A stretch of DNA of 64,000 nt, taken from positions 42,883,909-42,947,908 of the forward strand of contig CM034547.1 in the NCBI GenBank assembly GCA_020055645.1, in the 5' to 3' direction. This stretch comes from Tomocerus qinae (taxonomy: Eukaryota; Arthropoda; Collembola; Entomobryomorpha; Tomoceridae). Every line of letters begins with the position of its first letter. Within the stretch, counting starts at the first letter, position 1. Of this stretch, positions 1,832 to 25,542 are shown piece after piece. The notes under the pieces are model-generated. The model searched no databases, was not told where the DNA came from, and saw nothing but the letters and a program-made list of their open reading frames with translations. Made by a program: the position numbers and the translations under genes.

Positions 1832-1839
1832 GAGTCACT

Positions 1840-2105
1840 CAAGATGCCTAGAATTTGTCACTCTATAGTAACGCATTTATTTAAATCAACTCCATTACAA
1901 GGTGAAGACTTAGACGGGGTTTCCCGGGTTTTTGCACCCAATCCGTATTTACTTTCTACCACAGAGAGGTAGGCATCCAAACCAAATAACCATGGTTACT
2001 TTCGGCTTGGGTGCTTGCTTCTCTGTGGCAGTATAGGTAGAATTCGAATTGTGTGCAAACTCGGGGAATATCCCTCTGTCTTCACCTTGTAATGAAGGCA
2101 TCTTG
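1840..2105 (+). repeat. 266-bp end unit (MITE-like) of the giant element, left
   Basis: This unit is bounded by CAAGATGCC at 1840 and GGCATCTTG at 2097-2105, so it looks like a small transposon in its own right. Inside are sub-terminal inverted segments CATTACAAGGTGAAGAC and GTCTTCACCTTGTAATG. An inverted copy of equal length closes the giant element at 18608-18873. Inner flanks of both units are the same sequence (GTGCGAGCC...), so the inner ends have no GAGTCACT. That fits two end units framing a cargo. Confidence 0.75.
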
Positions 2106-2352
2106 GTGCGAGCCATATACAAAGTTAGCAGTTTTTTCACATTCCATAAACAATTTTCATTCGGTATAAAAAACGCTTGTTTTTACAAGTGTATTATATC
2201 TAATTTTGCCCTATGAAGCATTCACCTACAAACACCAACTTCAAAAAATGCTGTTACTGACTGACGCCCAGTCACATTCATCGATTTATATGTTAAATGC
2301 ATCCCTTTACAACAATGCCAATTTTTCTTAAAGACAATGATGTATGATTATT

Positions 2353-3471
2353 AATAAGAGGTTCGCTCTTATTCATGCGAATAGTTTGTGTTTCTGTCTG
2401 GATGTCTGTCTGTCTGTCTGTGGTCCACTCCTCCATGCATAAGCTATATGGTCAATAACTTTTGACAGAAGTAAAATTTTTAAATTCTGTCTTCGGATCC
2501 TGAAACAAGACGTATGATTTAAGATCGAGTTCGTTAATGGGTCACATCGGTCACACCCACAGGTCATGGGGAGTGACTTAATATCAATGACCGTTACATT
2601 TCATTGTAGTTACAATTTGATGCAATATGATGCCACATTCCAGTTTCCCGCAGACCCGCCACATGTTTTACTTCTTCCACTCATTCCACCGTGACTTAAA
2701 TTTTCGTATATCCACTGCGTATTCTGCTTTACGTCCCTATCAAGCGTCACTTTACAGTTCGTACTTCAATTTTCGCGTATTTTACATTTTGTTTCACCTA
2801 TTTAACGTTGATTTCGTCATTACATTCACCTTCACAATTCAACAGTTATCTCAATCGTCGTGAAATTATTTATTTTATTTCGTTTGTTACACGTATCACA
2901 CGTCAAAGGTACTTTTTTTTCACCTTTTTTTACATTACATTTTCTTCACACATATTTTATATCGATTTCATTACATTTTACCTCCACATTTCAACAGTTA
3001 TCTTCCCATTACGTACGTTTGTTATTTCATCATTCATCGAAGATACATCCCTTTGGGTACTTCATTTTGACTACTCAGTGAGGTGGAATTCGGCTAGATT
3101 TCCTTCGGGTCTTTTAGTTCAACAGCGTCTGTTTTCAAAATTCAGTTGGTTTTGTACATCGTATAGTCATGTAATGGTTCTTCCAAAAAAGCTTCTTAAA
3201 CAACTTTTGAAATACTATATGACAAATACCTTAATCCCCCGTCTGGAGAAGTGGATAACTTTCATTCTGTACATTCTAACCACTTCTTTTGACTCCGAAA
3301 CACTTTTCATGTTACCGAATGATTCAAAATACATTTCAGGGTCGGTCTGTCGTGGGGGCTAAATGGTCAGCCGCCTGGGCCCCATGATGTTTAACACAAA
3401 ATTTTACTGTCTTTTTTAACCTTTGACCTTTTTTGAACCTCTTATTGCTTACATCCTGTGTGTAACACAGT
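2353..3471. mobile_element. 1,119-bp insertion in the left arm with TTATT duplication
   Basis: The right arm (near 15000) runs straight through this site, so the extra DNA is an insertion. TTATT occurs on both sides (2348-2352 and 3472-3476), while the empty site in the other arm has it once. The insert begins with a perfect short hairpin, AATAAGAG-gttcg-CTCTTATT. AATAAGAGGTTC recurs inverted at about 3434-3445, close to the other end. It is pyrimidine-rich on the plus strand. A 184-codon frame at 2808-3362 has no recognisable domain and is probably fortuitous. The superfamily was not identified. Confidence 0.75.
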
Positions 3472-3818
3472 TTATTTCTTGTTTTAAAACTTCTTAGTAT
3501 GTTACATAATCTGTATGAATCTATTTCCAATTATGAACTGTCTGCTAGCTGAGAAAAATGTGAACAACTTTAAATAAATGCCCAAAAAAGTACTATGTTG
3601 GTGCTAAAATCCCTGCCTAAAAGTTCTGATGCATCAATCAAAATTATGAATAAATAAAAATGACATAAAGTAGATTTCTCAAGATACAGATTTATTTACA
3701 CCTTTGGTAGTTATTACATACAAAATGCACAGACAAAAACAATAAATAAAATAATATAATTGTAAACATGAGATAAATACAAATAAATGCTAATTGTAGA
3801 AAGTTGGTTGAGAGTCGG

Positions 3819-5364
3819 TTAGAAGATCCTGACTCGTCCATTGAGGTCGAGAACGGCGAGGTATCCAGCACGCATGACGGAAATATCCAAAGGCAGGTCG
3901 AGGAGGCAGTTGTTGCCAACAGAGTGGATGGTCTGAACAAGTTTTCCAGAGGACGAGTTGAAGACTTTGACCGAGTTGCTCCTTGAGTCGCAGACGATAA
4001 CGTTGCCACAAATATCCACATCGAGTCCAGATGGGCGCCGAAGAAGAGTGTTGTCCACCAGAAGTACGCTCATCCCGGTTCTCACGTCCACCTTGAAGAT
4101 GCAGTGCAGATTGAAGTCCGTCACGAACACGCTGCTCCCTATAATCAACAAAAACAGTTAAAATAGAATTAGATTTATGTGGCTACTTGAAAAGTAAAAA
4201 GACATGAAAAGTTAGTTACCTGTGTTATCGAAGGCCACTCCCCTCGGGTACTTGAACTCTCCACGGTGTTGACGGATGAATCGGCCGGTCGAGTCGAAGA
4301 ACTGGATCCTAGCGTTTCTCGAGTCGGCCACCACGATCAGTTGTCCATCCTTAGAAACGGCGATATCCCACGGAAATCTGAATTGGCCCGCACCATGTCC
4401 ACGACTCCCGAACGAAGAAATGAATTGTCCAGTGCAAGTGAAGATTTGAATCCGATGGTTGTCCTTGTCCACCACAAGAAGACGATCTCCAGCACAGTCA
4501 AACGCCATGGCAGTCGGACGGTTCAACTCCCCATCACCACTCCCAAGAGATCCGAACCGGAAATCAAATTCTCCATCAGGACGGAAGATAAGAACCTCGT
4601 GCTTCTCCCGATCACAGATCCCCAACTGCAATAATCAACAACAAACTTAATTTAGTTCCCTTCCAGAATAAATAATCTCATCATACACAAAAAGTAAATA
4701 TATCTCATTATCTATAATATCGATCTCATTAAATAGTATAATTTATAAATAATTCAATAAAGACTTAATTACCTGTTCAGTGGTTTTGCTGGTGGCGACT
4801 CCCCAGGGTTTTCTTTTTAAGGAGTTGTCCAGTCGATTCGTCCACCTCAATATCCAGGGAGACCACAGGACTAGGGTAATGGAGCACCGACGAGTAGTTT
4901 CTGGAAACATGGAAGGAGAGTGAAGACTGGATCCGGTCCCCAATGACGAGGAAAGCCATGTGGGGTCCGCACTCCAGAGGACGATAGACACATGAAATCC
5001 GAGACAAGTCACCCCTCAGTTCCAGCTGGACAGGATACCGGAATATTGAAGGGCTCCTCACGTAGCAGTCCAAAGTCATCAGGTCCATCTTCTCCAAGTT
5101 TGTTCCATCCACCCAGAATTCGCCCGCTTGGTCCTTGAAATGCTCCAGTTCCCCGCTCTTGAGTTCCAGAGTCTCGTAGACCTCCTCTTCAGTAACGGCG
5201 AACATGGACACAAGATCCGCAAGGCTTGTCCCTTCAGACGTCTCCTCCGGTGTGGCCAAAGCGGTAGAGTATTCACAACTATCCAGTCCATCTTCGAAAA
5301 GATCCGATGGCAAGGCGAAGAAACTCATCTCTGCTTCCAGATATCGTTCAACGATTGTCTCCAT
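3819..5364 (-). pseudogene. filamin-NHL protein, LIN-41/TRIM71-like C-terminal half, left copy (frameshifted in exon 1)
   Basis: Exons read 5364-4773, 4625-4220 and 4138-3819 with GT-AG introns. The ATG follows directly after a splice acceptor, and a 5' UTR intron lies upstream. The first about 90 residues are acidic and unrecognised. Residues about 110-185 look like a filamin/ABP280 repeat (CVYRPLECGPHMAFLVIGD). The rest is NHL beta-propeller repeats with TRIM71-style signatures DKDNHRIQIF, PWDIAV, YPRGVAF and VTDFNLH. RING, B-box and coiled coil of full LIN-41 are absent. TRIM-NHL proteins use the NHL face to bind mRNA, so an RNA-binding fragment is the likely ancestral product. One extra A in the lysine-rich run at about 4812-4818 shifts the frame near residue 185, before the NHL repeats. 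Exons 2 and 3 are intact here. A single homopolymer error could mimic this lesion. Confidence 0.85.
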
Positions 5365-5551
5365 CTGAAAATAACAAATAAATAAAATATACTCATAAAT
5401 ACACGAAATCATAAATACAAACCTGGCAATGAAACCAATCAATTAAATCAACTTGAAACAAATAAAAAAGCCATCACTCACCGTAGAAATAAAAAAGTCT
5501 CGAAAAAGGACTCTGTAGTAATAGTAAAAGTTCAGAGTTCGGTGAAGGTTT

Positions 5552-5583
5552 AGAGTTTGGAGGAGAGCTCTCCTCCAAACTCT
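5552..5583. promoter_or_regulatory. 32-bp perfect palindrome in the 5' UTR (left copy)
   Basis: AGAGTTTGGAGGAGAG followed at once by its exact reverse complement, inside the transcribed leader of the left gene copy. In RNA it could form a tight hairpin near the cap. In DNA it is a symmetrical protein-binding candidate. A shorter CTCGAG-centred palindrome adjoins it. Confidence 0.7.
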
Positions 5584-5646
5584 CTCTCGAGAGATATGGT
5601 TTGTGCAAGAGCAAAAATTGCTACGAAACTTGAAGGGGACTGGGGA

Positions 5647-5658
5647 CCTTTTATATGG
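5647..5658 (-). promoter_or_regulatory. TATA box of the left filamin-NHL copy
   Basis: On the minus strand it reads CCATATAAAAGG, about 65 bp upstream of the 5' UTR palindrome and upstream of a UTR intron whose donor TACG|GTGAG has its mirror image at 13018 in the right arm. The motif also fits a CArG/SRF-type box. In the extra upstream copies in the element core it is altered (CCATATAATTCC), so only the two gene-proximal copies keep it. Confidence 0.6.
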
Positions 5659-6533
5659 AACCGAAGGTTCCTTAATTATTTGTACCCACGTCTATACGAG
5701 TTGGTTAATATCCACAAAAAACGCCCCCTCCCTTTCTCTTCCATTCCAGTTCCAAGCTGCATGCAGTTCCACAATTAGATATTCCAGGCTCGGTCGGATG
5801 CAGGATTAGTGGATGCAGAGAGACTGCATGTCTGCCCATGCAGCCTTTCACTTCCAGAAACTCCCCCTTCTTCTCCATTCAGTATCACCCTAATTAGTTA
5901 AAAAGGGCGTTTCTTCCCACGGAAGGATTAAATAAATAATCTCATTTAACAATTTCTTCCTAATTATTATTATTTTCTTAAATAATTTTAAACAACTACC
6001 TTAAAAGTAATAATATTATTACCGTATCTATCATTACCATTTCATTACTAGATATAGAGACTTAGAGAGAGTAACGCTACAATAATATTATTATAATTCG
6101 CACATTGAACTTTTAGGCCACAAAACAAACTATTTCCTTCCAATAATCAGTTTTTAAGGAATGTTTAATGAAGAAATGGCCGTTATTACAAATTTATGAC
6201 ATTTTCGAATTAGAAATACTAAGGGCACACTGTTAATACATGTAACTTCATTGTGTAATAATAAATTAAAACTTCATTTAAAGTAACTGTCACCACATCA
6301 CATATTTTCACCATTTTACTTTTACAAGGCAAACATTTTTAGTCTTGTGAATTTCCTAAACCAAGGAATTTTTCGCATTTGATATTTTCGAATAATTAGT
6401 TTCAATTGGGACACAATGGCAATATTTGTGTCGTACTATTTCAAGTTCATCAAAATCTTATAATATTGTACATCTTGTGCATGCACTAACAAAAACTAAC
6501 AAAAACTAACAAAAACTAACTAACAAAAACTAA

Positions 6534-7537
6534 GAATATTTAAAGAAAAATGTTATTAAAACTAGTTGTTATTTAGTTTGTTTTGTCGCCTAACAGTTCA
6601 ATGTGCTAATTATAATATTATTGTATTATTATTATTATAAATTATTTAAGAAAATAATAATTAGGAAGAAATTGTTAAATGAGATTATTTATTTAATCCT
6701 TCCGTGGGAAGAAACGCCCTTTTTAATTAATAATGTGGGGATGAGGTTCCCCAATTGAATGCAGTGGACTGTGGTTTGAACTTATTATCTATCTCTAGCT
6801 TGTGTCTGGTGTAATGCGTTGTGTGTACTGGTTTCAGAAATTATGAAACTAACCAAAAATGATGTAGTCACACAGGTGTAAATAATCTAAACTAATTTAT
6901 TTACTAACCTAAGTATAATGTGACAATTAGTTACAATTAATAGAATTAAAAGATAACTACACTGAAAAGAATTGATCTATGGAGAGCACAAAAGGCATGC
7001 GTCCACACTGGAGCAAGTATCGTAATCAATTGATTTTGAAATGGTAGACAGAATGGTAGAAAAGAACGCTATATTAAAATAAGTGCGCGCAGGCACAGTA
7101 TCCTATGAAATAAAAGAGTAACGGTTATCATTCTCCCAAACATAGGGTGATACTGAATGGAGACGAAGGGGAAGTTTCTGGAAGTGAAAGGCTGCATGGG
7201 CAGACATGCAGTCTCTCCTGCATCCACTAATCCTGCATCCGACCGAGCCTGGAATATCTAATTGTGGAACTGCATGCAGCTTGGAACTGGAATGGAAGAG
7301 AAAGGGAGGGGGCGTTTTTTGTGGATATTAACCAACTGGTATAGACGTGGGTACAAATAATTAAGGACACTTCGGTTCCATATAATTCCATATTTCCCAC
7401 GCAATGTTTTCGATTCTACTTCATCTTCTTCCTCGTTAGGGCTTAGTTAGCGTTTTTTACACCTTAATTACAAACTAACAAAAGGATTTTTTACTTAAAC
7501 GTTTTTCTATGTTGCAGGCAAGATGCATTTTAGTTTT
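6534..7537. repeat. element core: diverged copy of the gene-upstream segment with a 0.4-kb insertion
   Basis: The segment repeats motifs of the gene-upstream region, for example GGAAGAAACGCCCTTTTTAA near 6705 and the CTGCATGGGCAGACATGCAG block near 7190. About 415 bp at roughly 6722-7142 is absent from the equivalent positions in the other copies and is presumably an insertion. No coding region was found. Confidence 0.6.
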
Positions 7538-8644
7538 TGTTAGTTTTTGTTAGTATTTGCTAGTTTTTGTTAATTTTTGTTAGGTTTTGCTACTTTTTGT
7601 TAGTTTTTGTTAGTTTTTGTTAGTTTTTGTTAGTTTTTGTTAGTTTTTGCTAGTTTTTGTTAGTTTTTGCTTGTTTTTGTTAGTTTTTGTTACTTTTTGT
7701 TAGTTTTTGTTAGTTTTTGCTAGTTTTTGTTAGTTTTTGCTAATTTTTGCCAGTTTTTGTTAGTTTTTGCTACTTTTTGTTATTTTTTGCTAGTTTTTAA
7801 TAGTTTTTGTTAGTTTTTGCTAGTTTTTGTTAGTTTTTGCTAGTTTTTGTTAGTTTTTGCTAGTTTTTGTTAGTTTTTGCTAGTTTTTGTTAGTTTTTGC
7901 TAGTTTTTGTTAGTTTTTGCTAATTTTTGCCAGTTTTTGTTAGTTTTTGCTACTTTTTGTTATTTTTTGTTATTTTTTGCTAGTTTTTAATAGTTTTTGT
8001 TAGTTTTTGCTAGTTTTTGTTAGTTTTTGCTAGTTTTTGTTAGTTTTTGCTAGTTTTTGTTAGTTTTTGCTAGTTTTTGTTAGTTTTTCCTAGTTTTTGC
8101 TAGTTTTTGTTAAGTTTTGCTAGTTTTTGTTAATTTTTGCTAGTTTTTGTTAGTTTTTGCTAGTTTTTGTTAGTTTTTGCTAGTTTTTGTTAGTTTTTGC
8201 TAGTTTTTGTTAGTTTTTGCTAGTTTTTGTTAGTTTTTGCTAGTTTTTGTTAGTTTTTGCTAGTTTTTGTTAGTTTTTTTTGTTAGTTTTTGCTAGTTTT
8301 TGTTAGTTTTTGCTAGTTTTTGTTAGTTTTTGTTAGTTTTTGCTAGTTTTTGTTAGTTTTTGTTAGTTTTTGTTAGTTTTTGTTAGTTTTTGTTAGTTTT
8401 TGCTAGTTTTTGTTAGTTTTTGTTAGTTTTTGCTAGTTTTTGTTAGTTTTTGTTAGTTTTTGCTAGTTTTTGTTAGTTTTTGCTAGTTTTTGTTAGCTTT
8501 TGCTAGTTTTTGTTAGTTTTTGCTTGTTTTTGTTAGTTTTTGTTAGTTTTTGTTAGTTTTTGCTAGTTTTTGTTAGTTTTTGCTAGTTTTTGTTAGTTTT
8601 TGTTAGTTTTTGCTAGTTTTTGTTAGTTTTTGCTAGTTTTTGTA
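7538..8644 (+). repeat. 10-bp minisatellite array TAGTTTTTGY (array 1)
   Basis: About 110 tandem copies of TAGTTTTTGT or TAGTTTTTGC, largely alternating T and C in the last position, with a few 1-2 bp slips. Every unit has a T5 run, so T-tracts recur each 10 bp, close to one helical turn. Confidence 0.95.
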
Positions 8645-11036
8645 TGAAATCCACAAGACTAAAAATGTTTACCTTGTAAAAGTAAAATGGTGAAAATATG
8701 TGATGTGGTGACAGCCACTTTAAATGAAGTGTTAATTTATTATTACACAATGAAGTTACATGTATTAACAGTGTGCCCTTAGTATTTCTAATTCGAAAAT
8801 TCTAAATATGTCATAAATTTGTAATAAACGACCATTTCTTCATAAAACATTGCTTAAAAACTGATTATTGGAAGGAAATATTTTGTTTTGTGGCCTAACG
8901 GTTCAATGTGGGAATTATAATATTATTATTGTAGCATTACTCTCTCTAAGTCTCTATATCTAGTAGTGAAATGGTAATGATAGATACGGTAATAATATTA
9001 TTACTTTTAAGATAGTTGTTTAAAATTATTTAAGAAAATAATAATTAGGAAGAAATTGTTAAATGAGATTATTTATTTAATCCTTCCGTGGGAAGAAACG
9101 CCCTTTTTAACTAATTAGGGTGATACGGAATGGAGAAGAAGGGGAGTTTCTGGAAGTGAAAGGCTGCATGGGCAGACATGCAGTCTCTCCTGCATCCACT
9201 AATCCTGCATCCGACCGAGCCTGGAATATCTAATTGTGGAACTGCATGCAGCTTGGAACTGGAATGGAAGAGAAAGGGAGGGGGCGTTTTTTGTGGATAT
9301 TAACCAACTGGTATAGACGTGGGTACAAATAATTAAGGACACTTCGGTTCCATATAATTCCATATTTCCCATGCAATGTTTTCGATTCTACTTCATCTTC
9401 TTCCTCGTTAAGGCTTAGTTAGCGTTTTTTACACCTTAATTACAAACTAAAAAAGGGATTTTTTACTTAAACATTTTTCTATGATGCAGGCAAGATGCAT
9501 TTTAGTTTTCATTAGTTTTTATTAGTTTTTGCTAGTTTTTGTTAGTTTTTGTTAGTTTTTGTTAGTTTTTGTTAGTTTTTGTTAGTTTTTGCTAGTTTAT
9601 GTTAGTTTTTGCTAGTTTTTGTTAGTTTTTGCTAGTTTTTGTTAGTTTTTTCTAGTTTTTGTTAATTTTTGCTAGTTTTTGTTAGTTTTTGTTTGTTTTT
9701 GCTAGTTTTTGTTTTGTTGGTTTTTGCTAGTTTTTGTTAGTTTTTGCTAGTTTTTGTTAGCTTTTGCTAGTTTTTGTTAGTTTTTGCTTGTTTTTGTTAG
9801 TTTTTGTTAGTTTTTGTTAGTTTTTGCTAGTTTTTGTTAGTTTTTGCTAGTTTTTGTTAGTTTTTGTTAGTTTTTGCTAGTTTTTGTTAGTTTTTGCTAG
9901 TTTTTGTATGAAATCCACAAGACTAAAAATGTTTACCTTGTAAAAGTAAAATGGTGAAAATATGTGATGTGGTGACAGCCACTTTAAATGAAGTGTTAAT
10001 TTATTATTACACAATGAAGTTACATGTATTAACAGTGTGCCCTTAGTATTTCTAATTCGAAAATTCTAAATATGTCATAAATTTGTAATAAACGACCATT
10101 TCTTCATAAAACATTGCTTAAAAACTGATTATTGGAAGGAAATATTTTGTTTTGTGGCCTAACGGTTCAATGTGGGAATTATAATATTATTATTGTAGCA
10201 TTACTCTCTCTAAGTCTCTATATCTAGTAGTGAAATGGTAATGATAGATACGGTAATAATATTATTACTTTTAAGATAGTTGTTTAAAATTATTTAAGAA
10301 AATAATAATTAGGAAGAAATTGTTAAATGAGATTATTTATTTAATCCTTCCGTGGGAAGAAACGCCCTTTTTAACTAATTAGGGTGATACGGAATGGAGA
10401 AGAAGGGGGAGTTTCTGGAAGTGAAAGGCTGCATGGGCAGACATGCAGTCTCTCCTGCATCCACTAATCCTGCATCCGACCGAGCCTGGAATATCTAATT
10501 GTGGAACTGCATGCAGCTTGGAACTGGAATGGAAGAGAAAGGGAGGGGGCGTTTTTTGTGGATATTAACCAACTGGTATAGACGTGGGTACAAATAATTA
10601 AGGACACTTCGGTTCCATATAATTCCATATTTCCCATGCAATGTTTTCGATTCTACTTCATCTTCTTCCTCGTTAAGGCTTAGTTAGCGTTTTTTACACC
10701 TTAATTACAAACTAAAAAAGGGATTTTTTACTTAAACATTTTTCTATGATGCAGGCAAGATGCATTTTAGTTTTCATTAGTTTTTATTAGTTTTTGCTAG
10801 TTTTTGTTAGTTTTTGTTAGTTTTTGTTAGTTTTTGTTAGTTTTTGTTAGTTTTTGCTAGTTTATGTTAGTTTTTGCTAGTTTTTGTTAGTTTTTGCTAG
10901 TTTTTTGTTAGTTTTTTCTAGTTTTTGTTAATTTTTGCTAGTTTTTGTTAGTTTTTGTTTGTTTTTGCTAGTTTTTGTTTTGTTGGTTTTTGCTAGTTTT
11001 TGTTAGTTTTTGCTAGTTTTTGTTAGTTTTTGCTAA
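8645..11036 (+). repeat. 1,264-bp direct tandem duplication in the element core
   Basis: TGTATGAAATCCACAAGACT starts at 8641 and again at 9905. The sequences that follow are near identical. Each unit has a spacer, the GGAAGAAACGCCC segment, the gene-upstream block with a degenerate TATA region, and a stretch of 10-bp array. The second unit merges into array 3. A further partial copy starts at about 12135 and leads into the intact right gene. Confidence 0.85.
9509..9906 (+). repeat. 10-bp minisatellite array 2
   Basis: About 40 units of TAGTTTTTGY, with irregularities (TTTTCATTAG, TTTTGTTTTGTTGG) that recur at the same offsets in array 3. The array was therefore copied within the larger duplication. 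Confidence 0.9.
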
Positions 11037-12007
11037 TTTTTGTTAGTTTTTGCTACTTTTTGTTAGTTTTTGCTAGTTTTTGTTAGATTTTGCTAGTTTT
11101 TGTTAGTTTTTGCTAGTTTTTGTTAGTTTTTCCTAGTTTTTGCTAGTTTTTGTTAATTTTTGCTAGTTTTTGTTAATTTTTGCTAGTTTTTGTTAGTTTT
11201 TGCTAGTTTTTGTTAGATTTTGCTAGTTTTTGTTAGTTTTTGCTAGTTTTTGCTAGTTTTTGTTAGTTTTTGTTAGTTTTTGCTAGTTTTTGTTAATTTT
11301 TGCTAGTTTTTGTTAGTTTTTGCTAGTTTTTGCTAGTTTTTGTTAGTTTTTGTTAGTTTTTGTTAGTTTTTGCTAGTTTATGTTAGTTTTTGCTTGTTTT
11401 TGTTAGTTTTTGCTAGTTTTTGTTAATTTTTGCTAGTTTTTTGTTAGTTTTTGCTAGTTTTTGTTAGTTTTTGCTACTTTTTGTTGGTTTTTGTTAGTTT
11501 TTGCTAGTTTTTGTTAATTTTTGCTAGTTTTTGCTACTTTTTGTTAGTTTTTGCTAGTTTTTGTTAGTTTTTGCTACTTTTTGCTAGTTTTCGTTAGTTT
11601 TTGCTAGTATTTGTTAATTTTTGCTAGTTTTTGCTAGTTTTTGTTAGTTTTTGCTAATTTTTGTTAGTTTTTGCTAATTTTTGTTAGTTTTTGCTAATTT
11701 TTGTTAGTTTTTGCTAATTTTTGTTAGTTTTTGCTAATTTTTGTTAGTTTTTGCTAATTTTTGTTAGTTTTTGCTAATTTTTGTTAGTTTTCGCTAGTTT
11801 TTGTTAGTTTTTGCTAGTTTTTGTTAGTTTTTGCTAGTTTTTGTTAGTTTTTGCTAGTTTTTGTTAGTTTTTGCTTGTTTTTGTTAGTTTTTGTTAGTTT
11901 TTGCTAGTTTTTTTTAATTTTTGCTAGTTTTTGTTAGTTTTCGTTAGTTTTTGTTAGTTTTTGTTAGTTTTCGTTAGTTTTTGTTAGTTTTTGTTAGTTT
12001 TTGTTAG
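10770..12007 (+). repeat. 10-bp minisatellite array 3
   Basis: About 123 units of TAGTTTTTGY with local sub-variants such as a block of TAATTTTTGT units near 11640-11790. It ends at TTAGTGCATGCACAAGATG, which also bounds the short array remnant in the left arm. Confidence 0.9.
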
Positions 12008-12842
12008 TGCATGCACAAGATGTACAATATTATAAGATTTTGATGAACGTGAAATAGTACGACATAAATATTGCCATTGTGTCCCAATTGAAACTAATTA
12101 TTCGAAAATATCAAATGCTATAAATTCCTTGGTTTATGAAATCCACAAGACTAAAAATGTTTACCTTGTAAAAGTAAAATGGTGAAAATATGTGATGTGG
12201 TGACAGCCACTTTAAATGAAGTGTTAATTTATTATTACACAATGAAGTTACATGTATTAACAGTGTGCCCTTAGTATTTCTAATTCGAAAATTCTAAATA
12301 TGTCATAAATTTGTAATAAACGGCCATTTCTTCATAAGACATTGCTTAAAAACTGATTTTTCGAAGGAAATATTTTGTTTAGTGGCCTAACAGTTCAATG
12401 TGCGAATTATAATATTATTATTGTAGCATTACTCTCTCTAAGTCTCTATATCTAGTAATGAAATGGTATTGATAGATACGGTAATAATATTATTACTTTT
12501 AAGGTAGTTGTTTAAAATCATTTAAGAAAATAATAATTAGGAAGAAATTGTTAAATGAGATTATTTATTTAATCCTTCCGTGGGAAGAAACGCCCTTTTT
12601 AACTAATTAGGGTGATACTGAATGGAGAAGAAGGGGGAGTTTCTGGAAGTGAAAGGCTGCATGGGCAGACATGCAGTCTCTCCTGCATCCACTAATCCTG
12701 CATCCGACCGAGCCTGGAATATCTAATTGTGGAACTGCATGCAGCTTGGAACTGGAATGGAAGAGAAAGGGAGGGGGCGTTTTTTGTGGATATTAACCAA
12801 CTAGTATAGACGTGGGTACAAATAATTAAGGACACTTCGGTT

Positions 12843-12854
12843 CCATATAAAAGG
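12843..12854 (+). promoter_or_regulatory. TATA box of the right filamin-NHL copy
   Basis: CCATATAAAAGG lies about 290 bp before the ATG. Transcription is inferred to start about 30 bp downstream. A UTR exon then runs to the donor at 13018 and is spliced to the acceptor at 13133. Confidence 0.6.
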
Positions 12855-12916
12855 TCCCCAGTTTCTTCAAGTTTCGTAGCAATTTTTGCTCTTCCACAAA
12901 CCACATCTCTCTCGAG

Positions 12917-12948
12917 AGAGTTTGGAGGAGAGCTCTCCTCCAAACTCT
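12917..12948. promoter_or_regulatory. 32-bp perfect palindrome in the 5' UTR (right copy)
   Basis: Identical to the palindrome at 5552-5583, so it predates the inverted duplication or has been kept the same since. It is preceded by CTCTCTCGAGAGAG (12907-12920), a second overlapping palindrome. Confidence 0.7.
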
Positions 12949-13133
12949 AAACCTTCACCGAACTCTGAACTTTTACTATTACTACAGAGTCCTTTTTCGA
13001 GACTTTTTTATTTCTACGGTGAGTGATGGCTTTTTTATTTGTTTCAAGTTGATTTAATTGATTGGTTTCATTTCCAGGTTTGTATTTATGATTTCGTTTA
13101 TTTATGAGTATTTTATTTATTTGTTATTTTCAG

Positions 13134-14662
13134 ATGGAGACAATCGTTGAGCGATGTCTGGAAGCAGAGATGAGTTTCTTCGCCTTGCCATCGGATCTTT
13201 TCGAAGATGGACTGGATAGTTGTGAATACTCTACCGCTTTGGCCACACCGGAGGAGACGTCTGAAGGGACAAGCCTTGCGGATCTTGTGTCCATGTTCGC
13301 CGTTACTGAAGAGGAGGTCTACGAGACTCTGGAACTCAAGAGCGGGGATCTGGAGCATTTCAAGGACCAAGCGGGCGAATTCTGGGTGGATGGAACAAAC
13401 TTGGAGAAGATGGACCTGATGACCTTGGACTGCTACGTGAGGAGCCCTTCAGTATTCCGGTATCCTGTCCAGCTGGAACTGAGGGGTGACTTGTCTCGGA
13501 TTTCATGTGTCTATCGTCCTCTGGAGTGCGGACCCCACATGGCTTTCCTCGTCATTGGGGACCGGATCCAGTCTTCACTCTCCTTCCATGTTTCCAGAAA
13601 CTACTCGTCGGTGCTCCATTACCCTAGTCCTGTGGTCTCCCTGGATATTGAGGTGAACGAATCGACTGGACAACTCATTAAACGAAAACCCTGGGGAGTC
13701 GCCACCAGCAAAACCACTGAACAGGTAATTAAGTCCTTATTGAATTATTTATAAATTATACTATTTAATGAGATCGATATTATAGATAATGAGATATATT
13801 TCCTTTTTATGTATGATGAGATTATTTATTCTGGAAGGGAACTAAATTAAGTTTTTTGTTGATTATTGCAGTTGGGGATCTATGATCGGGAGAAGCACGA
13901 GGTTCTTATCTTCCGTCCTGATGGAGAATTTGATTTCCGGTTCGGATCTCTTGGGAGTGGTGATGGGGAGTTGAACCGTCCGACTGCCATGGCGTTTGAC
14001 TGTGCTGGAGATCGTCTTCTTGTGGTGGACAAGGACAACCATCGGATTCAAATCTTCACTTGCACTCGTTCGGGAGTCGTGGACATGGTGCGGGCCAATT
14101 CAGATTTCCGTGGGATATCGCCGTTTCTAAGGATGGACAACTGATCGTGGTGGCCGACTCGAGAAACGCTAGGATCCAGTTCTTCGACTCGACCGACCGA
14201 TTCATCCGTCAACACCGTGGAGAGTTCAAGTACCCGAGGGGAGTGGCCTTCGATAACACAGGTAACTAACTTTTCATGTCTTTTTACTTTTCAAGTAGCC
14301 ACATAAATCTAATTCTATTTTAACTGTTTTTGTTGATTATAGGGAGCAGCGTGTTCGTGACGGACTTCAATCTGCACTGCATCTTCAAGGTGGACGTGAG
14401 AACCGGGATGAGCGTACTTCTGGTGGACAACACTCTTCTTCGGCGCCCATCTGGACTCGATGTGGATATTTGTGGCAACGTTATCGTCTGCGACTCAAGG
14501 AGCAACTCGGTCAAAGTCTTCAACTCGTCCTCTGGAAAACTTGTTCAGACCATCCACTCTGTTGGCAACAACTGCCTCCTCGACCTGCCTTTGGATATTT
14601 CCGTCATGCGTGCTGGATACCTCGCCGTTCTCGACCTCAATGGACGAGTCAGGATCTTCTAA
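13134..14662 (+). pseudogene. filamin-NHL protein, LIN-41/TRIM71-like C-terminal half, right copy (16-bp deletion in exon 2)
   Basis: Exons are 13134-13724, 13872-14261 and 14343-14662, with the same splice sites as the left copy. Exon 1 is open to its donor (197 codons), and here the lysine run is in frame. Exon 2 is 390 nt against 406 nt on the left: 16 bp are missing at about 14066/14067, just after the NHL strand ending RIQIFTC. This shifts the frame and truncates the propeller. Exon 3 is unchanged. In exon 1 the proteins differ by about six substitutions (for example Y/C after ER, and D/N in the VDES motif). AATAAA occurs in the 3' flank near 14785. Introns are retained, so the gene was captured as DNA and not as a processed mRNA. 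The coding DNA is clearly more GC-rich than the chromosomal genes at 27-64 kb. Confidence 0.85.
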
Positions 14663-15234
14663 CCGACTCTCAACCAACTTTCTACAATTAGCATTTATTT
14701 GTATTTATCTCATGTTTACAATTATATTATTTTATTTATTGTTTTTGTCTGTGCATTTTGTATGTAATAACTACCAAAGGTGTAAATAAATCTGTATCTT
14801 GAGAAATCTACTTTATGTCATTTTTATTTATTCATAATTTTGATTGATGCATCAGAACTTTTAGGCAGGGATTTTAGCACCAACATAGTACTTTTTTGGG
14901 CATTTATTTAAAGTTGTTCACATTTTTCTCAGCTAGCAGACAGTTCATAATTGGAAATAGATTAATACAGATTATGTAACATACTAAGAAGTTTTAAAAC
15001 AAGAAATAATCATACATCATTGTCTTTAAGAAAAATTGGCATTGTTGTAAAGGGATGCATTTAACATATAAATCGATGAATGTGACTGGGCGTCAGTCAG
15101 TAACAGCATTTTTTGAAGTTGGTGTTTGTAGGTGAATGCTTCATAGGGCAAAATTAGATATAATACACTTGTAAAAACAAGCGTTTTTTATACCGAAATT
15201 GTTTATGGAATGTGAAAAAATTGCTAACTTTGTA

Positions 15235-15610
15235 CAGGGTGGCCAAAGATGAATGACATACACTTTGACCCTGAATAACTTCTGAACGGTGTTCCTTACA
15301 TTTGAAGACAGTTGATTTTCACACTAAATCGCACGGTCTTTCCATTGCCGTTGATCTCTTTCCTCTACACCTAAAATTTCAAACACCATTTAAGATCAAA
15401 GGTGTTCAAAGTCATTTACCAATGGAGAGTTACAACATTTTTCGTCCCCCAACGTTTTACACATTTAAAGTTTTTTGTAAACAATAATATTCGGCTAATT
15501 TTTAAGTTATTTCTTGGTCTTTCGACTGGTATATTCCGCATTTAAATATCTCAAACCGTTCAAAAGTTATTCAGGGTCAAAGTGTATGTCATTCATCTTT
15601 GGCCACCTTG
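15235..15610. mobile_element. TA-flanked MITE (mariner/Tc1-type ends), 376 bp
   Basis: The ends are CAGGGTGGCCAAAGATGAAT and the inverse ...TTTGGCCACCTTG, with inverted repeats of about 55 bp. The left arm of the giant element shows the empty site as ...TTTGTATATGG..., containing one TA where the filled site has two. CAGGGTG-type termini with TA duplication are usual for Tc1/mariner relatives in arthropods. A 61-codon frame inside is not recognisable. Confidence 0.85.
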
Positions 15611-15674
15611 TATATTGCCTAGAATCTATACCGTTATTGCTTTCCAGCAATACGGTCTAGTATCGTTGGCTCTA

Positions 15675-17146
15675 TTACCCCATCACCTTTTCTTTGACCT
15701 GCATGCATTTTCGATTCATGTCCAGTGTGCGAAACAACATCCACTACCCCCTCTACAAATATGAGAGTTTTCGTTCACACTGTACAGTTCCCATTCAAAC
15801 TCGTAGACAAAAGAAATTTTCCGAGTCGAGGAAGGCTGACATTATAGGTGATAGTGGCCAGTGGTAGAAACTGGCACGAATGGAATTGGCCGACAGAAAC
15901 AATTCAAAATGGAAAATAATGTCCACACAGTTCCAATTTCAGCTTTTGTGTCGTTCTTTTGACATCAAGGCGTGTCAAAGGGCAAGGTCGACAGGCCAAT
16001 ACACTCAACGCCCCCTATAATAATACCAAGTGCAGTCTACGCTAATTATGTAATGATATAAATTATAAAATTTCGTGTATTGTATTTATTAATTCCGTAC
16101 TAAATGATATACCAAATTAAATATTAACAAAAAATATTAGGGACCGGAATTTTTCCGAATTTCTCCGGAATTTTTCCGAATTTCTCCGGAATTTTTCCGA
16201 ATTTCTCCGGAATTTTTCCGAATTTCTCCGGAATTTTTCCCAATTTCTCCGGAAATTTTCCGAATTTCTCAGGAATTTTTCCGAATTTCTCCGGAATTTT
16301 TCCGAATTTCTCCGGAATTTTTCCGAATTTCTCCGGAATTTTTCCCAATTTCTCCGGAATTTTTCCGAATTTCTCCGGAATTTTTCCGAATTTCTCCGGA
16401 ATTTTTCCGAATTTCTCCGGAATTTTTCCGAATTTCTCCGGAATTTTTCCGAATTTCTCCGGAATTTTTCCGAATTTCTCCGGAATTTTTCCGAATTTCT
16501 CCGGAATTTTTCCGAATTTCTCCGGAATTTTTCCGAATTTCTCCAGAATTTTTCCGAATTTCTCCGGAATTTTTCCGAATTTCTCCGGAAATTTTCCGAA
16601 TTTCTCCGGAATTTTTCCCAATTTCTCCGGAATTTTTCCACAATTTCTCCGGAATTTTTCCCAATTTCTCCGGAATTTTTCTCAATTTCTCCGGAATTTT
16701 TCCCAATTTCTCCGGAATCGGAATTTTATAATTTATATCATTACATAATTAGCGGAGACAGCCCTTGGTATTATTATAGGGGGCGTTGAGTGTCGACCTT
16801 GCCCTGTTGAGTGTTGAGTGTCGAGCCTGTCGACCTTGCCCTTTGACACGCCTTGATGTCAAAAGAACGACACAAATGCTGAAATTGGAAGTGTGTGGAC
16901 ATTATCTTCCATTTTGGACTGTTTCTGTCGGCCTATTCCGTTCGTGCCAGTTTCTACCACTGGCCACTATCACCTATAATGTCAGCCTTCCTCAACTCGG
17001 AAAATTTCTTTTGTCTACGAGTTTGAATGGGAACTGTACAGTGTGAACGAAAACTCTCATATTTGTAGAGGGGGTAGTGGATGTTGTTTCGCACACTGGA
17101 CATGAATCGAAAATGCATGCAGGTCAAAGAAAAGGTGATGGGGTAA
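15675..17146. mobile_element. minisatellite-bearing TIR element, short copy (1,472 bp)
   Basis: It begins TTACCCCATCACC and ends GGTGATGGGGTAA with TA on each side. The opposite arm of the host element has the empty site GGCTCTACC. Inverted arms of about 400 bp flank an internal array of 21-bp repeats. A second copy with a far longer array is at 21386-25542, and the arms of the two copies are almost identical. No transposase frame was recognised. Confidence 0.9.
16145..16718. repeat. 21-bp minisatellite array inside the TIR element, about 27 units
   Basis: The unit is GGAATTTTTCCGAATTTCTC plus C (21 bp), with variants at position 12 (G or C) and a few others. The length is a multiple of three and lacks stops in several frames, so long open frames are artefacts of the repeat. 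Confidence 0.95.
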
Positions 17147-17623
17147 TACCATATGCATTCTGTTTGCCACGGAATCCGTGGCAAACAGAGGTGAAGACCG
17201 ACAATGAGGCGAGGTGGAAATGAGTGGATGCGGCCAAAATATCCATGGTTATTATAATAAATAATAAATCAGAACACAGCATTTCATTTCAAAAGTTGTA
17301 TGACTTTCATTAACATTCTCAGGGGGAATATTTATTGCAATATGCGAATGTATTCGTTTAATATGATATACTACATACATTTGAGCATATTACATTATTA
17401 TCACCATCCTAAGCTACACTTTCTACAGTGCGTACTCAGCTCTATGAATAATACAAGCTATAATATTTTATTGGATTAACTTTCGAACTATGAAAACATC
17501 ATAATAGACTAGATTATCTTAATTAATTACTGTTTGGAAGGAGCAACTGCTGACACACAAAATAGAAAGACACAGTAAATTTTTGGGTTATAAATCATCA
17601 ATATTGTAAGTTACTGCATAAAA

Positions 17624-17694
17624 AATTTTACAACCTTTCCGAATAAATTACAACCTTTCCGAATAAATTACAACCTTTCCGAATAAATTACAAC
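17624..17694. repeat. 21-bp direct repeat, three units
   Basis: AATTACAACCTTTCCGAATA-type units occur three times in a row in the left arm of the palindromic element. Fewer copies appear in its right arm near 18000-18045. Confidence 0.75.
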
Positions 17695-17699
17695 ATAGA

Positions 17700-17804
17700 A
17701 TGTTGGCCAAACAAGAAGAACCGATAGATGAAGAAATGGAATTACCTAACCGTATATACCCAACATTAAGACCTCCGCGACTTGTGCGAGATTGGCAGGA
17801 TTAA
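17700..17804 (+). pseudogene. 34-codon coding-like remnant at the centre of the palindromic element
   Basis: An open stretch with protein-like composition, acidic then proline and arginine rich (EEPIDEEME, LRPPRLVRDW), ends in TAA. It lies in the unpaired centre between the two arms, where a transposon's own or captured coding sequence would be. It may be the last codons of a lost gene. It is too short to identify. Confidence 0.3.
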
Positions 17805-18607
17805 TTACATTTCACTTGGAATGCATGCCAAAAGCTTTTAGCCGTGAAATAAATTCATAAAATAATTACATTTCGTCCAACATTTTATCATTTTGTAATT
17901 TTATGTTATTGATGTATTCAAATCTTAATCCTTGCCGTAGAAGTAGATGAAATTCTCATGAAGTATCCTTAAGCCTTATCTGCGTAATAATTGTAATAAT
18001 TTATTCGGAAATGTTGTAATTTATTCGGAAAGGTTGTAATTTGTTCTAAAATTTTTTATGCAGTGACTTACAATATTGATGATTTATAACCCAAAAATTT
18101 ACTGTGTCTTTCTATTTTGTGTGTCAGCAGTTGCTCCTTCCAAACAGTAATTAATTAAGATAATCTAGTCTATTATGATGTTTTCATAGTTCGAAAGTTA
18201 ATCCAATAAAATATTATAGCTTGTATTATTCATAGAGCTGAGTACGCACTGTAGAAAGTGTAGCTTAGGATGGTGATAATAATGTAATATGCTCAAATGT
18301 ATGTAGTATATCATATTAAACGAATACATTCGCATATTGCAATAAATATTCCCCCTGAGAATGTTGATGAAAGTCATACAACTTTTGAAATGAAATGCTG
18401 TGTTCTGATTTATTATTTATTATAATAACCATGGATATTTTGGCCGCCTCCACTCATTTCCACCTCGCCTCATTGTCGGTCTTCACCTCTGTTTGCCACG
18501 GATTCCGTGGCAAACAGAATGCATTTGGTAGAGCCAACGATACTAGACCGTATTGCTGGAAAGCAATAACGGTATAGATTCTAGACAACCTTGTATATGG
18601 CTCGCAC

Positions 18608-18873
18608 CAAGATGCCTTCATTACAAGGTGAAGACAGAGGGATATTCCCCGAGTTTGCACACAATTCGAATTCTACTTATACTGCCACAGAGAAGCAAGC
18701 ACCCAAGCCGAAAGTAACCATGGTTATTTGGTTTGGATGCCTACCTCTCTGTGGTAGAAAGTAAATACGGATTGGGTGCAAAAATCCGGGAAACCCCCTC
18801 TAAGTCTTCACCTTGTAATGGAGTTGATTTAAATAAATGCGTTACTATAGAGTGACAAATTCGAGGCATCTTG
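18608..18873 (-). repeat. 266-bp end unit (MITE-like) of the giant element, right
   Basis: Inverted copy of 1840-2105 with the same CAAGATGCC / GGCATCTTG boundaries and the same length. Its outer edge abuts GAGTCACT at 18874-18881, identical to the 8 bp outside the left end. Confidence 0.75.
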
Positions 18874-18881
18874 GAGTCACT

Positions 18882-21072: not shown

Positions 21073-21385
21073 CGATTCTATAAGCTGCCTTATCAGGCGA
21101 GCTAAAAAGCTTAGTGAGAGGGCAGTTACTGTTGGCAGTATTGTTTCTTTACCCATTCCCAAAATCGACAGATCAAATACTGATCCAACAAACTTACCAT
21201 GTAAAGTTCTCCAAAGACTAGAAAATGGTAATCTTAAACTACAATGTGCCAAGGGGATCATTGAATGTATGGTAAGTGAAATAAATGTCGGTCGATGGAC
21301 CGCTGAAATCGACACAACTGGATGGCCGGAGGCACCTATAAAGTACATAACTACGTACGATAACCGTACTATGATGTTATCCGTA

Positions 21386-24300
21386 TTACCCCATCACCTT
21401 TTCTTTGACCTGCATGCATTTTCGATTCATGTCCAGTGTGCGAAACAACATCCACTACCCCCTCTACAAATATGAGAGTTTTCGTTCACACTGTACAGTT
21501 CCCATTCAAACTCGTAGACAAAAGAAATTTTCCGAGTCGAGGAAGGCTGACATTATAGGTGATAGTGGCCAGTGGTAGAAACTGGCACGAATGGAATTGG
21601 CCGACAGAAACAATTCAAAATGGAAAATAATGTCCACACAGTTCCAATTTCAGCTTTTGTGTCGTTCTTTTGACATCAAGGCGTGTCAAAGGGCAAGGTC
21701 GACAGGCCAATACACTCAACGCCCCCTATAATAATACCAAGTGCAGTCTACGCTAATTATGTAATGATATAAATTATAAAATTTCGTGTATTGTATTTAT
21801 TAATTCCGTACTAAATGATATACCAAATTAAATATTAACAAAAAATATTAGGGACCGGAATTTTTCCGAATTTCTCCGGAATTTTTCCGAATTTCTCCGG
21901 AATTTTTCCGAATTTCTCCGGAATTTTTCCCAATTTCTCCGGAATTTTTCCCAATTTCTCCGGAAATTTTCCGAATTTCTCAGGAATTTTTCCGAATTTC
22001 TCCGGAATTTTTCCGAATTTCTCCGGAATTTTTCCCAATTTCTCCGGAATTTTTCCGAATTTCTCCGGAATTTTTCCCAATTTCTCCGGAATTTTTCCCA
22101 ATTTCTCCGGAATTTTTCCGAATTTCTCCGGAATTTTTCCCAATTTCTCCGGAATTTTTCCGAATTTCTCCGGAATTTTTCCCAATTTCTCCGGAATTTT
22201 TCCCAATTTCTCCGGAATTTTTCCGAATTTCTCAGGAATTTTTCCGAATTTCTCCGGAATTTTTCCCAATTTCTCCGGAATTTTTCCGAATTTCTCAGGA
22301 ATTTTTCCGAATTTCTCCGGAATTTTTCCGAATTTCTCCGGAATTTTTCCCAATTTCTCCGGAATTTTTCCGAATTTCTCCGGAATTTTTCCGAATTTCT
22401 CCGGAATTTTTCCCAATTTCTCCGGAATTTTTCCGAATTTCTCCGGAATTTTTCCGAATTTCTCAGGAATTTTTCCGAATTTCTCCGGAATTTTTCCGAA
22501 TTTCTCCGGAATTTTTCCCAATTTCTCCGGAATTTTTCCGAATTTCTCCGGAATTTTTCCCAATTTCTCCGGAATTTTTCCCAATTTCTCCGGAATTTTT
22601 CCCAATTTCTCCGGAATTTTTCCGAATTTCTCCGGAATTTTTCCGAATTTCTCCGGAATTTTTCCCAATTTCTCCGGAATTTTTCCGAATTTCTCAGGAA
22701 TTTTTCCGAATTTCTCCGGAATTTTTCCATATTTCTCCGGAATTTTTCCCAATTTCTCCGGAATTTTTCCGAATTTCTCCGGAATTTTTCCGAATTTCTC
22801 CGGAATTTTTCCGAATTTCTCCGGAATTTTTCCAATTTCTCCGGAATTTTTCCGAATTTCTCCGGAATTTTTCCCAATTTCTCCGGAATTTTTCCCAATT
22901 TCTCCGGAATTTTTCCGAATTTCTCCGGAATTTTTCCCAATTTCTCCGGAATTTTTCCGAATTTCTCCGGAATTTTTCCCAATTTCTCCGGAATTTTTCC
23001 GAATTTCTCCGGAATTTTTCCGAATTTCTCCGGAATTTTTCCCAATTTCTCCGGAATTTTTCCCAATTTCTCCGGAATTTTTCCGAATTTCTCAGGAATT
23101 TTTCCGAATTTCTCCGGAATTTTTCCCAATTTCTCCGGAATTTTTCCCAATTTCTCCGGAATTTTTCCCAATTTCTCCGGAATTTTTCCGAATTTCTCCG
23201 GAATTTTTCCCAATTTCTCCGGAATTTTTCCCAATTTCTCCGGAATTTTTCCCAATTTCTCCGGAATTTTTCCCAATTTCTCCGGGATTTTTCCGAATTT
23301 CTCCGGAATTTTTCCGAATTTCTCCGGAATTTTTCCCAATTTCTCCGGAATTTTTGCCAATTTCTCCGGAATTTTTCCGAATTTCTCAGGAATTTTTCCG
23401 AATTTCTCCGGAATTTTTCCCAATTTCTCCGGAAATTTTCCGAATTTCTCCGGAATTTTTCCCAATTTCTCCGGAATTTTTCCGAATTTCTCCAGAAATT
23501 TTCCGAATTTCTCCGGAATTTTTCCAAATTTCTCCGGAATTTTTCCGAATTTCTCCGGAATTTTTCCAAATTTCTCCGGAATTTTTCCCAATTTCTCCGG
23601 AAATTTTCCCAATTTCTCCGGAATTTTTCCCAATTTCTCCGGAATTTTTCCGAATTTCTCCGGAATTTTTCCCAATTTCTCCGGAATTTTTCCCAATTTC
23701 TCCGGAATTTTTCCGAATTTCTCCGGAATTTTTCCGAATTTCTTCGGAATTTTTCCCAATCTTCGGAAATTTTCCGAATTTCTCCGGAATTTTTCCCAAT
23801 TTCTCCGGAATTTTTCCCAATTTCTCCGGAATTTTTCCGAATTTCTCAGGAATTTTTCCGAATTTCTCCGGAATTTTTCCCAATTTCTCCGGAATTTTTC
23901 CCAATTTCTCCGGAATTTTTCCGAATTTCTCCGGAATTTTTCCGAATTTCTCAGGAATTTTTCCGAATTTCTCCGGAATTTTTCCGAATTTCTCCGGAAT
24001 TTTTCCGAATTTCTCCGGAATTTTTCCGAATTTCTCCGGAATTTTTCCCAATTTCTCCGGAATTTTTCCCAATTTCTCCGGAATTTTTCCCAATTTCTCC
24101 GGAATTTTTCCCAATTTCTCCGGAATTTTTCCCAATTTCTCCGGAATTTTTCCCAATTTCTCCGGAAATTTTTTCGAATTTCTCCGGAATTTTTCCGAAT
24201 TTCTCCGGAATTTTTCCCAATTTCTCCGGAAATTTTCCGAATTTCTCCGGAATTTTTCCGAATTAATCCGGAATTTTTCCGAATTTCTCCGGAATTTTTC

Positions 24301-25542
24301 CGAATTTCTCCGGAATTTTTCCGAATTTCTCCGGAATTTTTCCGAATTTCTCCGGAATTTTTCCGAATTTCTCCGGAATTTTTCCGAATTTCTCCGGAAT
24401 TTTTCCGAATTTCTCCGGAATTTTTCCGAATTTCTCCGGAATTTTTCCCAATTTCTCCGGAAATTTTCCGAATTTCTCCGGAATTTTTCCGAATTTCTCA
24501 GGAATTTTTCCGAATTTCTCCGGAATTTTTCCGAATTTCTCCGGAATTTTTCCCAATTTCTCCGGAATTTTTCCGAATTTCTCCGGAATTTTTCCGAATT
24601 TCTCCGGAAATTTTCCGAATTTCTCCGGAATTTTTCCCAATTTCTCCGGAATTTTTCCGAATTTCTCCGGAATTTTTCCCAATTTCTCCGGAAATTTTCC
24701 GAATTTCTCCGGAATTTTTCCGAATTTCTCCGGAATTTTTCCCAATTTCTCCGGAAATTTTCCGAATTTCTCCGGAATTTTTCCCAATTTCTCCGGAATT
24801 TTTCCGAATTTCTCCGGAAATTTTCCCAATTTCTCCGGAATTTTTCCGAATTTCTCCGGAAATTTTCCGAATTTCTCCGGAATTTTTCCCAATTTCTCCG
24901 GAAATTTTCCGAATTTCTCCGGAATTTTTCCCAATTTCTCCGGAATTTTTCCCAATTTCTCCGGAATTTTTCCCAATTTCTCCGGAATTTTTCCCAATTT
25001 CTCCGGAATTTTTCCCAATTTCTCCGGAATTTTTCCCAATTTCTCCGGAATTTTTCCCAATTTCTCCGGAATTTTTCCCAATTTCTCCGGAATTTTTCCC
25101 AATTTCTCCGGAATCGGAATTTTATAATTTATATCATTACATAATTAGCGGAGACAGCCCTTGGTATTATTATAGGGGGCGTTGAGTGTCGACCTTGCCC
25201 TGTTGAGTGTTGAGTGTCGAGCCTGTCGACCTTGCCCTTTGACACGCCTTGATGTCAAAAGAACGACACAAATGCTGAAATTGGAAGTGTGTGGACATTA
25301 TCTTCCATTTTGGACTGTTTCTGTCGGCCTATTCCGTTCGTGCCAGTTTCTACCACTGGCCACTATCACCTATAATGTCAGCCTTCCTCGACTCGGAAAA
25401 TTTCTTTTGTCTACGAGTTTGAATGGGAACTGTACAGTGTGAACGAAAACTCTTATATTTGTAGAGGGGGTAGTGGATGTTGTTTCGCACACTGGACATG
25501 AATCGAAAATGCATGCAGGTCAAAGAAAAGGTGATGGGGTAA
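21386..25542. mobile_element. minisatellite-bearing TIR element, long copy (4,157 bp)
   Basis: It has the same TTACCCCATCACC ends and about 400-bp arms as the copy at 15675-17146, with TA on each side (21384-21385, 25543-25544). It sits inside the Ginger-like integrase fragment, which fixes its boundaries. The difference in size from the short copy lies wholly in the 21-bp array. Confidence 0.9.
21856..25113. repeat. 21-bp minisatellite array, about 155 units
   Basis: Same unit as 16145-16718 with more variety. G/C alternation at position 12 gives TTTTTCCGAAT or TTTTTCCCAAT, CTCAGG replaces CTCCGG in some units, and TTTTTCC sometimes becomes AATTTTCC. Higher-order blocks of variants recur. 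The 3' end is a run of nearly pure CCC variants. A few single-base slips change the reading frame. Confidence 0.95.

Follow-up and report, generated by a model that had tools for sequence, protein, structure and literature searches.

A 17-kb block bounded by two inverted copies of one MITE and carrying TRIM71/LIN-41-like genes in Tomocerus qinae: a probable composite transposon

Structure and gene content of the block

The window analysed here comprises 64,000 nucleotides of the springtail Tomocerus qinae (C2:42883909-42947908; contig C2, CM034547.1), the genome assembly of which holds 334,443,149 bases in 115 contigs. It harbours a block of exactly 17,034 bp end to end (1840-18873, CAAGATGCC...GGCATCTTG) with two inverted copies of a TRIM71/LIN-41-like gene, considered here as a candidate composite transposon. 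The block is bordered by two direct copies of GAGTCACT (left, 1832-1839; right, 18874-18881) that agree in 8/8 positions, a match expected by chance about once in 65,536 at a fixed place, and its outer flanks differ from each other. A previous reading of the letters, made without database searches (sequence-only reading), had described an inverted-repeat element with an intact 8-bp duplication; the duplication, the distance between the ends and the inverted orientation of the arms were borne out, whereas the arms proved to be interrupted on both sides.

The left gene (3819-5364, minus strand) has coding exons at 5364-4773, 4625-4220 and 4138-3819, and the right copy (13134-14662, plus strand) at 13134-13724, 13872-14261 and 14343-14662. 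The 438-aa product contains NHL repeats (PF01436, five stretches by Pfam) and finds its best PDB matches in TRIM71 NHL domains, as expected for a TRIM71-type NHL protein; the RING and B-box domains of TRIM71/LIN-41 are not among its Pfam matches. As to the filamin-NHL gene proposed from the letters, the NHL part stands, whereas no filamin domain was found in the product by Pfam, though several relatives of the protein carry PF00630. Neither arm contains the complete gene that had been claimed for both: in the left copy a 1-bp difference in the first coding exon (about 4812-4822) puts what follows out of frame, and in the right copy 16 bp are missing at about 14066/14067 (second coding exon), both places being conserved in aligned relatives. 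Outside these indels the copies differ in eight codons (six amino-acid-changing, two silent), a small number that would fit relaxed selection. Among the best 120 of 782 protein matches, the top named relatives are from Allacma fusca, Orchesella dallaii and Folsomia candida, and two unnamed metagenome proteins outscore these springtail relatives; the named matches of a nearby G-protein-coupled receptor (GPCR) gene are also led by A. fusca, O. dallaii and F. candida.

Self-comparison revealed three inverted arm pairs (1833-2126/18881-18587, 2118-2352/15234-15005 and 3472-6523/15009-11970). The alignment of the arms, proposed as a check by the sequence-only reading, fell into three parts with 4/266 substitutions in the terminal 266-bp units, 1/223 in 2125-2352, and 49/3023 between the main part of the left arm (3478-6523, minus strand) and that of the right arm (11970-15003, plus strand). 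These differences are unevenly placed: a 767-bp tract (3518-4284) is free of them, a stretch equalled in 0/20,000 random placements of the 57 events. We ascribe this unevenness to conversion of one arm by the other. Array-unit sequence from downstream of the left gene (2106-2352, minus strand), which matches units of gene arrays on another chromosome, C3, up to position 2106, has its counterpart in the right arm (15005-15234, plus strand), recognized by arm alignment and C3 match.

The left arm contains an interruption of about 1.1 kb (2353-3477), a later insertion with apparent 5-bp repeats TTATT, and the right arm one of about 3.35 kb (15235-18587). The latter consists of a later TA-flanked element resembling a miniature inverted-repeat transposable element (MITE; 15235-15611), in which a ~3-kb element with 9-bp repeats TATACAAGG is nested (15612-18588); repeats and ends of these insertions were read by eye. 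Another element, built around a 21-bp minisatellite, occurs twice in the window (15673-17152, ~27 units; 21384-25548, ~155 units), with TTACCCC...GGGGTAA ends and, by eye, apparent TA repeats at the second copy.

The palindrome centre lies at about 6533/6534 and adjoins a minisatellite, (TTAGTTTTTG)n, which alternates in the centre of the block (6534-12008, plus strand) with three gene-less blocks, each made up of promoter-upstream sequence (U; partial in the first block) and a link. U/link blocks and minisatellite share the orientation of the right gene.

The MITE family forming the ends

Both ends of the block are formed by complete 266-bp units (1840-2105, plus strand, with its outer 5' end at 1840; 18608-18873, minus strand, with its outer 5' end at 18873). 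The sequence-only reading had delimited this unit exactly but missed that it represents a whole MITE: the 9-mer CAAGATGCC is present without mismatch at both ends of each unit, and these four MITE ends are its only exact occurrences in the window, those with one mismatch (11 observed vs 9.2 expected) being at chance level. Each unit contains a subterminal 17-mer twice and can pair along its whole length as a hairpin (z -9.71; 0/200 shuffles as stable), and no Pfam matches were obtained for the two open reading frames (ORFs) of 60 aa or more with which the units overlap. The units are thus short, non-coding, hairpin-forming and bounded by terminal inverted repeats (TIRs), and they belong to a family of dispersed copies with duplications of fixed size. 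Outer ends were described by the pattern CAAGATGCCTCGAATTTGTCAC; both outer ends of the block are the 5' MITE end with its extra 42-43 nt.

A genome search, in which 40 of 450 candidates were scored, yielded at least 41 full-length copies (a lower bound) including the two in the block. Searching for further copies of the 266-bp ends, as the sequence-only reading had advised, thus turned up 39 more full-length copies with many different 8-bp flanks, and the lack of other copies that would have refuted that reading did not come true. All 39 were fetched; 37 have an 8-bp duplication (two with one mismatch) and two a 9-bp duplication. Among the 37 fetched singly, the 8-bp duplication is perfect in 33 and matches in 7/8 positions in two, and a perfect 9-bp duplication is found in two. 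One locus on contig C1 (L053, C1:85719929-85720593) contains an adjacent inverted MITE pair, about 50 bp apart, with one perfect duplication per MITE; it is a natural control for the pair of the block and possibly a future composite. Four of the 37 copies (L051, L058, L061 and L066) have common flanks and the common duplication TAAACTGTAAAG, and the identity of their flanks indicates one MITE insertion within another repeat that was itself multiplied.

The family prefers targets of the form TANN-N8-NNTA (17/30 distinct sites begin with TANN, 22/30 end with NNTA and 12/30 do both; the background for TA-N12-TA is 2,509/273,984 positions), and the insertion site of the block on C2, TATT-GAGTCACT-TTTA, fits this preference. 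A blind sample of 210 kb of genome contained no MITE matches, which is uninformative. In viral contigs the 17-bp motif led to four stretches, and the 14-22 bp pieces that these have in common with the MITE were taken as chance.

Taken singly, the MITEs of the block are not flanked by a duplication (3/8 and 1/8 matches), whereas the pair together has 8/8. Two copies of one element bound the block and the duplication lies solely outside the pair, the arrangement expected of a composite. In the alignment of the 41 copies, the two block MITEs share 11 non-majority column states, six of which, namely five substitutions and a 1-base deletion, occur in none of the other 39 copies; unshared are three left-only and one right-only differences. 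They diverge by 1.5 % from each other and by at least 3.0 % from any other copy. The six private states common to both indicate that a single MITE was duplicated and exclude two independent insertions.

Relation to the gene arrays on C3

In a genome search with the gene DNA (40 of 203 candidates scored), at least 29 matches on C3 cover at least 1,931 of the 2,173 bases with 87-93 % identity, accompanied by further partial C3 matches; among the C1 matches listed are one partial at 94 % (C1:19210547-19211503) and three at 77-79 %. Many C3 matches are 5.62-5.66 kb apart, representing large tandem TRIM71/LIN-41-like arrays (C3:30.45-34.30 Mb) with a unit of this length and near-identical neighbours. 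Two array copies (L084 and L087) differ by 0 substitutions, but an indel breaks one of them; the 438-codon frame is open in two and broken in two of four C3 gene copies read, so broken copies are not peculiar to the block. With the parental copies in these arrays, the block has the constitution of a Pack-TIR element, i.e., a host gene between TIR ends and its parental copy elsewhere.

The genes of the two arms are 1.07 % apart and differ by 3.9-4.9 % from the four sampled C3 genes, which differ by 0-4.0 % among themselves; with four C3 genes in the comparison, no date can be put on the departure from C3. Forty gene states are common to the arms and absent from these four genes, and 10 and 11 are private to one arm. 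Gene and MITE have similar proportions of shared to unshared changes (40/21 and 6/4, respectively; Fisher p 0.73), as expected if both travelled together.

The C3 homology to the block arm ends at 2106, i.e., at the MITE boundary. Seven of the ten C3 stretches fetched continue uninterrupted through ATGGCT(C/G)GCACTGT, with GCT(C/G)GCAC exactly where the MITE of the block begins (GCTCGCAC exactly in three, GCTGGCAC in four); an eighth (L077) has the two-base variant GCTTCCAC, the site is not shown in L079 and L081, and the MITE 17-mer is present in none of the ten. The uninterrupted C3 sequence represents a donor-type empty site. In the block, GCTCGCAC directly precedes the MITE in both arms; read along the window, this inner flank is GTGCGAGC at 2106-2113, with its mirror at 18600-18607. 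The most likely reading of this flank is a target duplication made by the original MITE insertion, the outer copy of which would have been left behind when the outer ends were used. The presumed original site on C3, TATG-GCTCGCAC-TGTA, fits the target preference of the family. The expected donor form would be an array unit with the MITE between two copies of GCTCGCAC.

In two C3 upstream stretches read, link and U precede the gene in the order found in the centre of the block, but are separated by about 260-285 bp of unrelated sequence. The same order of link and U in C3 indicates that the centre consists of array units that lost their gene. The minisatellite is absent from both stretches, by which its derivation from the C3 array proved wrong; it may have arisen in the lineage of the block or in array units other than the two read. 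The C3 spacer of about 260-285 bp (L082, L083) follows a splice-acceptor-like end and has the appearance of coding sequence; a second gene, or an exon, may be present in the C3 array unit.

Origin of the block

We consider the block to be, with high probability, a non-autonomous composite transposon (macrotransposon) in which two inverted copies of one MITE enclose the genes. It appears to have moved as one unit, a well-supported reading since its ends derive from a dispersed MITE family, its C2 site fits the preference of that family and the home of its cargo is in the C3 arrays. The sequence-only reading, by which the block moved, or grew after moving, as one unit, agrees as to the single-unit move but had in mind an ordinary cargo transposon and not a composite of two MITE copies.

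According to the proposed course of events, a GCTCGCAC site located some 250 bp downstream of a TRIM71/LIN-41-like gene in a C3-like tandem array would first have received a MITE. The stretch from MITE through gene and upstream region would then have been duplicated head-to-head, centred beside the minisatellite, to give two inverted MITEs around the genes. A transposase from elsewhere would have used the two outermost MITE ends, ignoring the inner ones, and the block would have integrated at TATT-GAGTCACT-TTTA on C2 with formation of the 8-bp duplication. Gene conversion between the arms, nested insertions and frameshifts would have followed. The MITE family with its duplications, the common origin of the two MITEs, the kinship of the cargo with the arrays and the uninterrupted donor-type site can be seen in the sequence itself; we infer the action of the transposase, the precedence of the head-to-head duplication over the jump and the cause of that duplication; for the latter, a hypothetical but plausible candidate is a break beside the minisatellite with sister fusion or template switching. 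Tentatively, and with rather less than even confidence, one may go further and suppose that an animal MITE family builds working composites by itself: head-to-head duplication of MITE plus gene (perhaps by transposase breaks on sister chromatids and fusion beside the minisatellite) would yield an inverted-MITE-ended block that moves between chromosomes and exports array genes beyond homogenisation.

Alternatively, a lone MITE at GAGTCACT on C2 might have broken and been repaired by template switching into the gene array. In the accessible part of PMC8277862, growth in place of this kind is put forward as the principal way in which single-copy Pack-TIRs of animals originate, and by its exact inner junction the block is single-copy. 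One 5' and one 3' MITE end should then lie outside, whereas the 5' end is found at both and the MITEs are complete; the identity of the two outer ends thus disfavours this route. An array sequence that stops exactly at the MITE boundary with GCTCGCAC would also go unexplained, unless the copied unit already had the MITE, and altogether we regard growth in place as unlikely. Foldback-like families such as Galileo (PMC3573991) and Tm1 (PMC3169594), as presented in the accessible parts of these papers, possess long, variable and recombining TIRs, and the block could be seen as an ordinary element of this type, with long inverted repeats that normally include the gene and the MITE family as its short derivative. 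The exact MITE-cargo junction is, however, confined to the block, six other MITE copies inspected with about 1.5 kb on each side contain no further block match, and the gene resides in MITE-free array units, which makes a foldback origin very improbable. That the block is an error of assembly, or a simple inverted duplication of the gene with no connection to transposition, is hardly credible either: although arm divergence is small and inverted gene blocks do occur in a springtail (11 palindromes in F. candida, according to the accessible part of PMC5490193), the symmetry stops at the MITE ends with an 8/8 direct repeat that fits the family preference, the outer flanks differ, the arms have specific insertions and the block lies inside a 71.8-Mb contig.

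Several points weigh against the composite transposon nevertheless. In the one assembly at hand, neither a second composite nor an empty C2 site was seen; the exact inner junction occurs twice in the genome, both times within the block (two matches with two mismatches are located on C1), and the block was not encountered in several places or seen to move. A donor unit with the MITE was not found, the exact outer junction expected of the donor having 0 genome matches, and array units beyond the four sampled may be considerably closer to the block. The MITE count comes from 40 of 450 candidates. No transposase was found, Pfam giving 0 matches for 39 ORFs in and around the block; these were drawn from a set of 80 stop-to-stop ORFs (60 aa or longer) in 1-27000, compiled without two 21-bp arrays, of which the other 41 lie in the genes, the centre repeats or the GPCR. 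The hint of the sequence-only reading at the hAT or P superfamilies is left without an established assignment: the family was compared with hAT by its 8-bp duplications in 37/39 copies and 9-bp duplications in two, and with the P superfamily by a duplication size compatible with 7-8 bp and by the 39 scanned ORFs, which are without a transposase domain.

Other features of the window

A 295-bp inverted repeat (685-979/1316-1610, 98 % identical) is situated just left of the block. Further right (59308-61074) lie exons of a gene that encodes a PAZ domain and a glycine/arginine-rich N-terminus, probably a Piwi/Argonaute gene. Scans of the window for tRNA genes and Rfam families found nothing.

Comparison with known systems

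TIR elements that move genes are known from plants and from some animals, yet the way in which a complete gene with its introns comes to be enclosed by transposon ends can rarely be seen. Here, the donor-type site, the presumed original duplication, the duplicated MITE and the final duplication occur in one genome, which makes the order of events testable in relatives. The following comparisons refer to the accessible parts of the papers cited.

A parallel in organization is provided by maize, where Ac macrotransposons include a 28-kb block that was excised and a 10.3-kb block that was reinserted, with 8-bp footprints (PMC9910405), and where a Ds-Ac pair moved up to 100 kb (PMC3260210). As in the block, two neighbouring element copies serve as the ends of one large block and an 8-bp duplication is made; unlike in the block, the ends are Ac or fractured Ac and the transposase is known (PMC9910405, PMC3260210), whereas T. 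qinae, an animal, has two inverted copies of one non-coding MITE, no transposase was found and the jump is deduced from sequence.

The sequence-only reading had not recognised animal cargo transposons of this size with whole intron-containing genes in both arms; gene-bearing TIR elements in animals were already described: gene capture by animal Pack-TIRs and Ssk-FB4 has been explained by gap-filling and fork-switching models (PMC8277862). What the block has in common with animal Pack-TIRs and Ssk-FB4 of Drosophila is an almost entire gene, introns and upstream region included, that lies between inverted-repeat ends and was carried to new places with target duplications (PMC8277862). Ssk-FB4 is multicopy, with ~700-bp TIRs, 9-10-bp duplications and one gene (PMC8277862), in contrast to the one copy, the two inverted (and broken) gene copies, the complete MITE ends and the 8-bp duplications of the block. 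Tm1, a Mutator/foldback family of root-knot nematodes, likewise combines an inverted-repeat element and its duplication around a transcribed locus (Cg-1), but has 9-bp duplications, composite TIRs of short tandem motifs and a size of about 1-3 kb (PMC3169594). Galileo (P superfamily) resembles the block in having long inverted repeats on which recombination and conversion have acted, and differs by 7-bp duplications and TIRs of at most about 1.25 kb, a host gene not being mentioned in the accessible text (PMC3573991). The palindromes of F. candida share the inverted gene duplication in a springtail, while the accessible text mentions neither transposon ends nor target duplications (PMC5490193).

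A MITE-ended gene composite in an animal was not recognised in the literature searched, though its absence from print is not established thereby. New here, compared with these systems, is an animal macrotransposon that is built from a single MITE in two inverted copies and carries part of a tandem gene array. MITEs, usually considered passive, would thus act as composite ends in an animal, and, if the interpretation is true, provide a route by which miniature transposons move whole genes.

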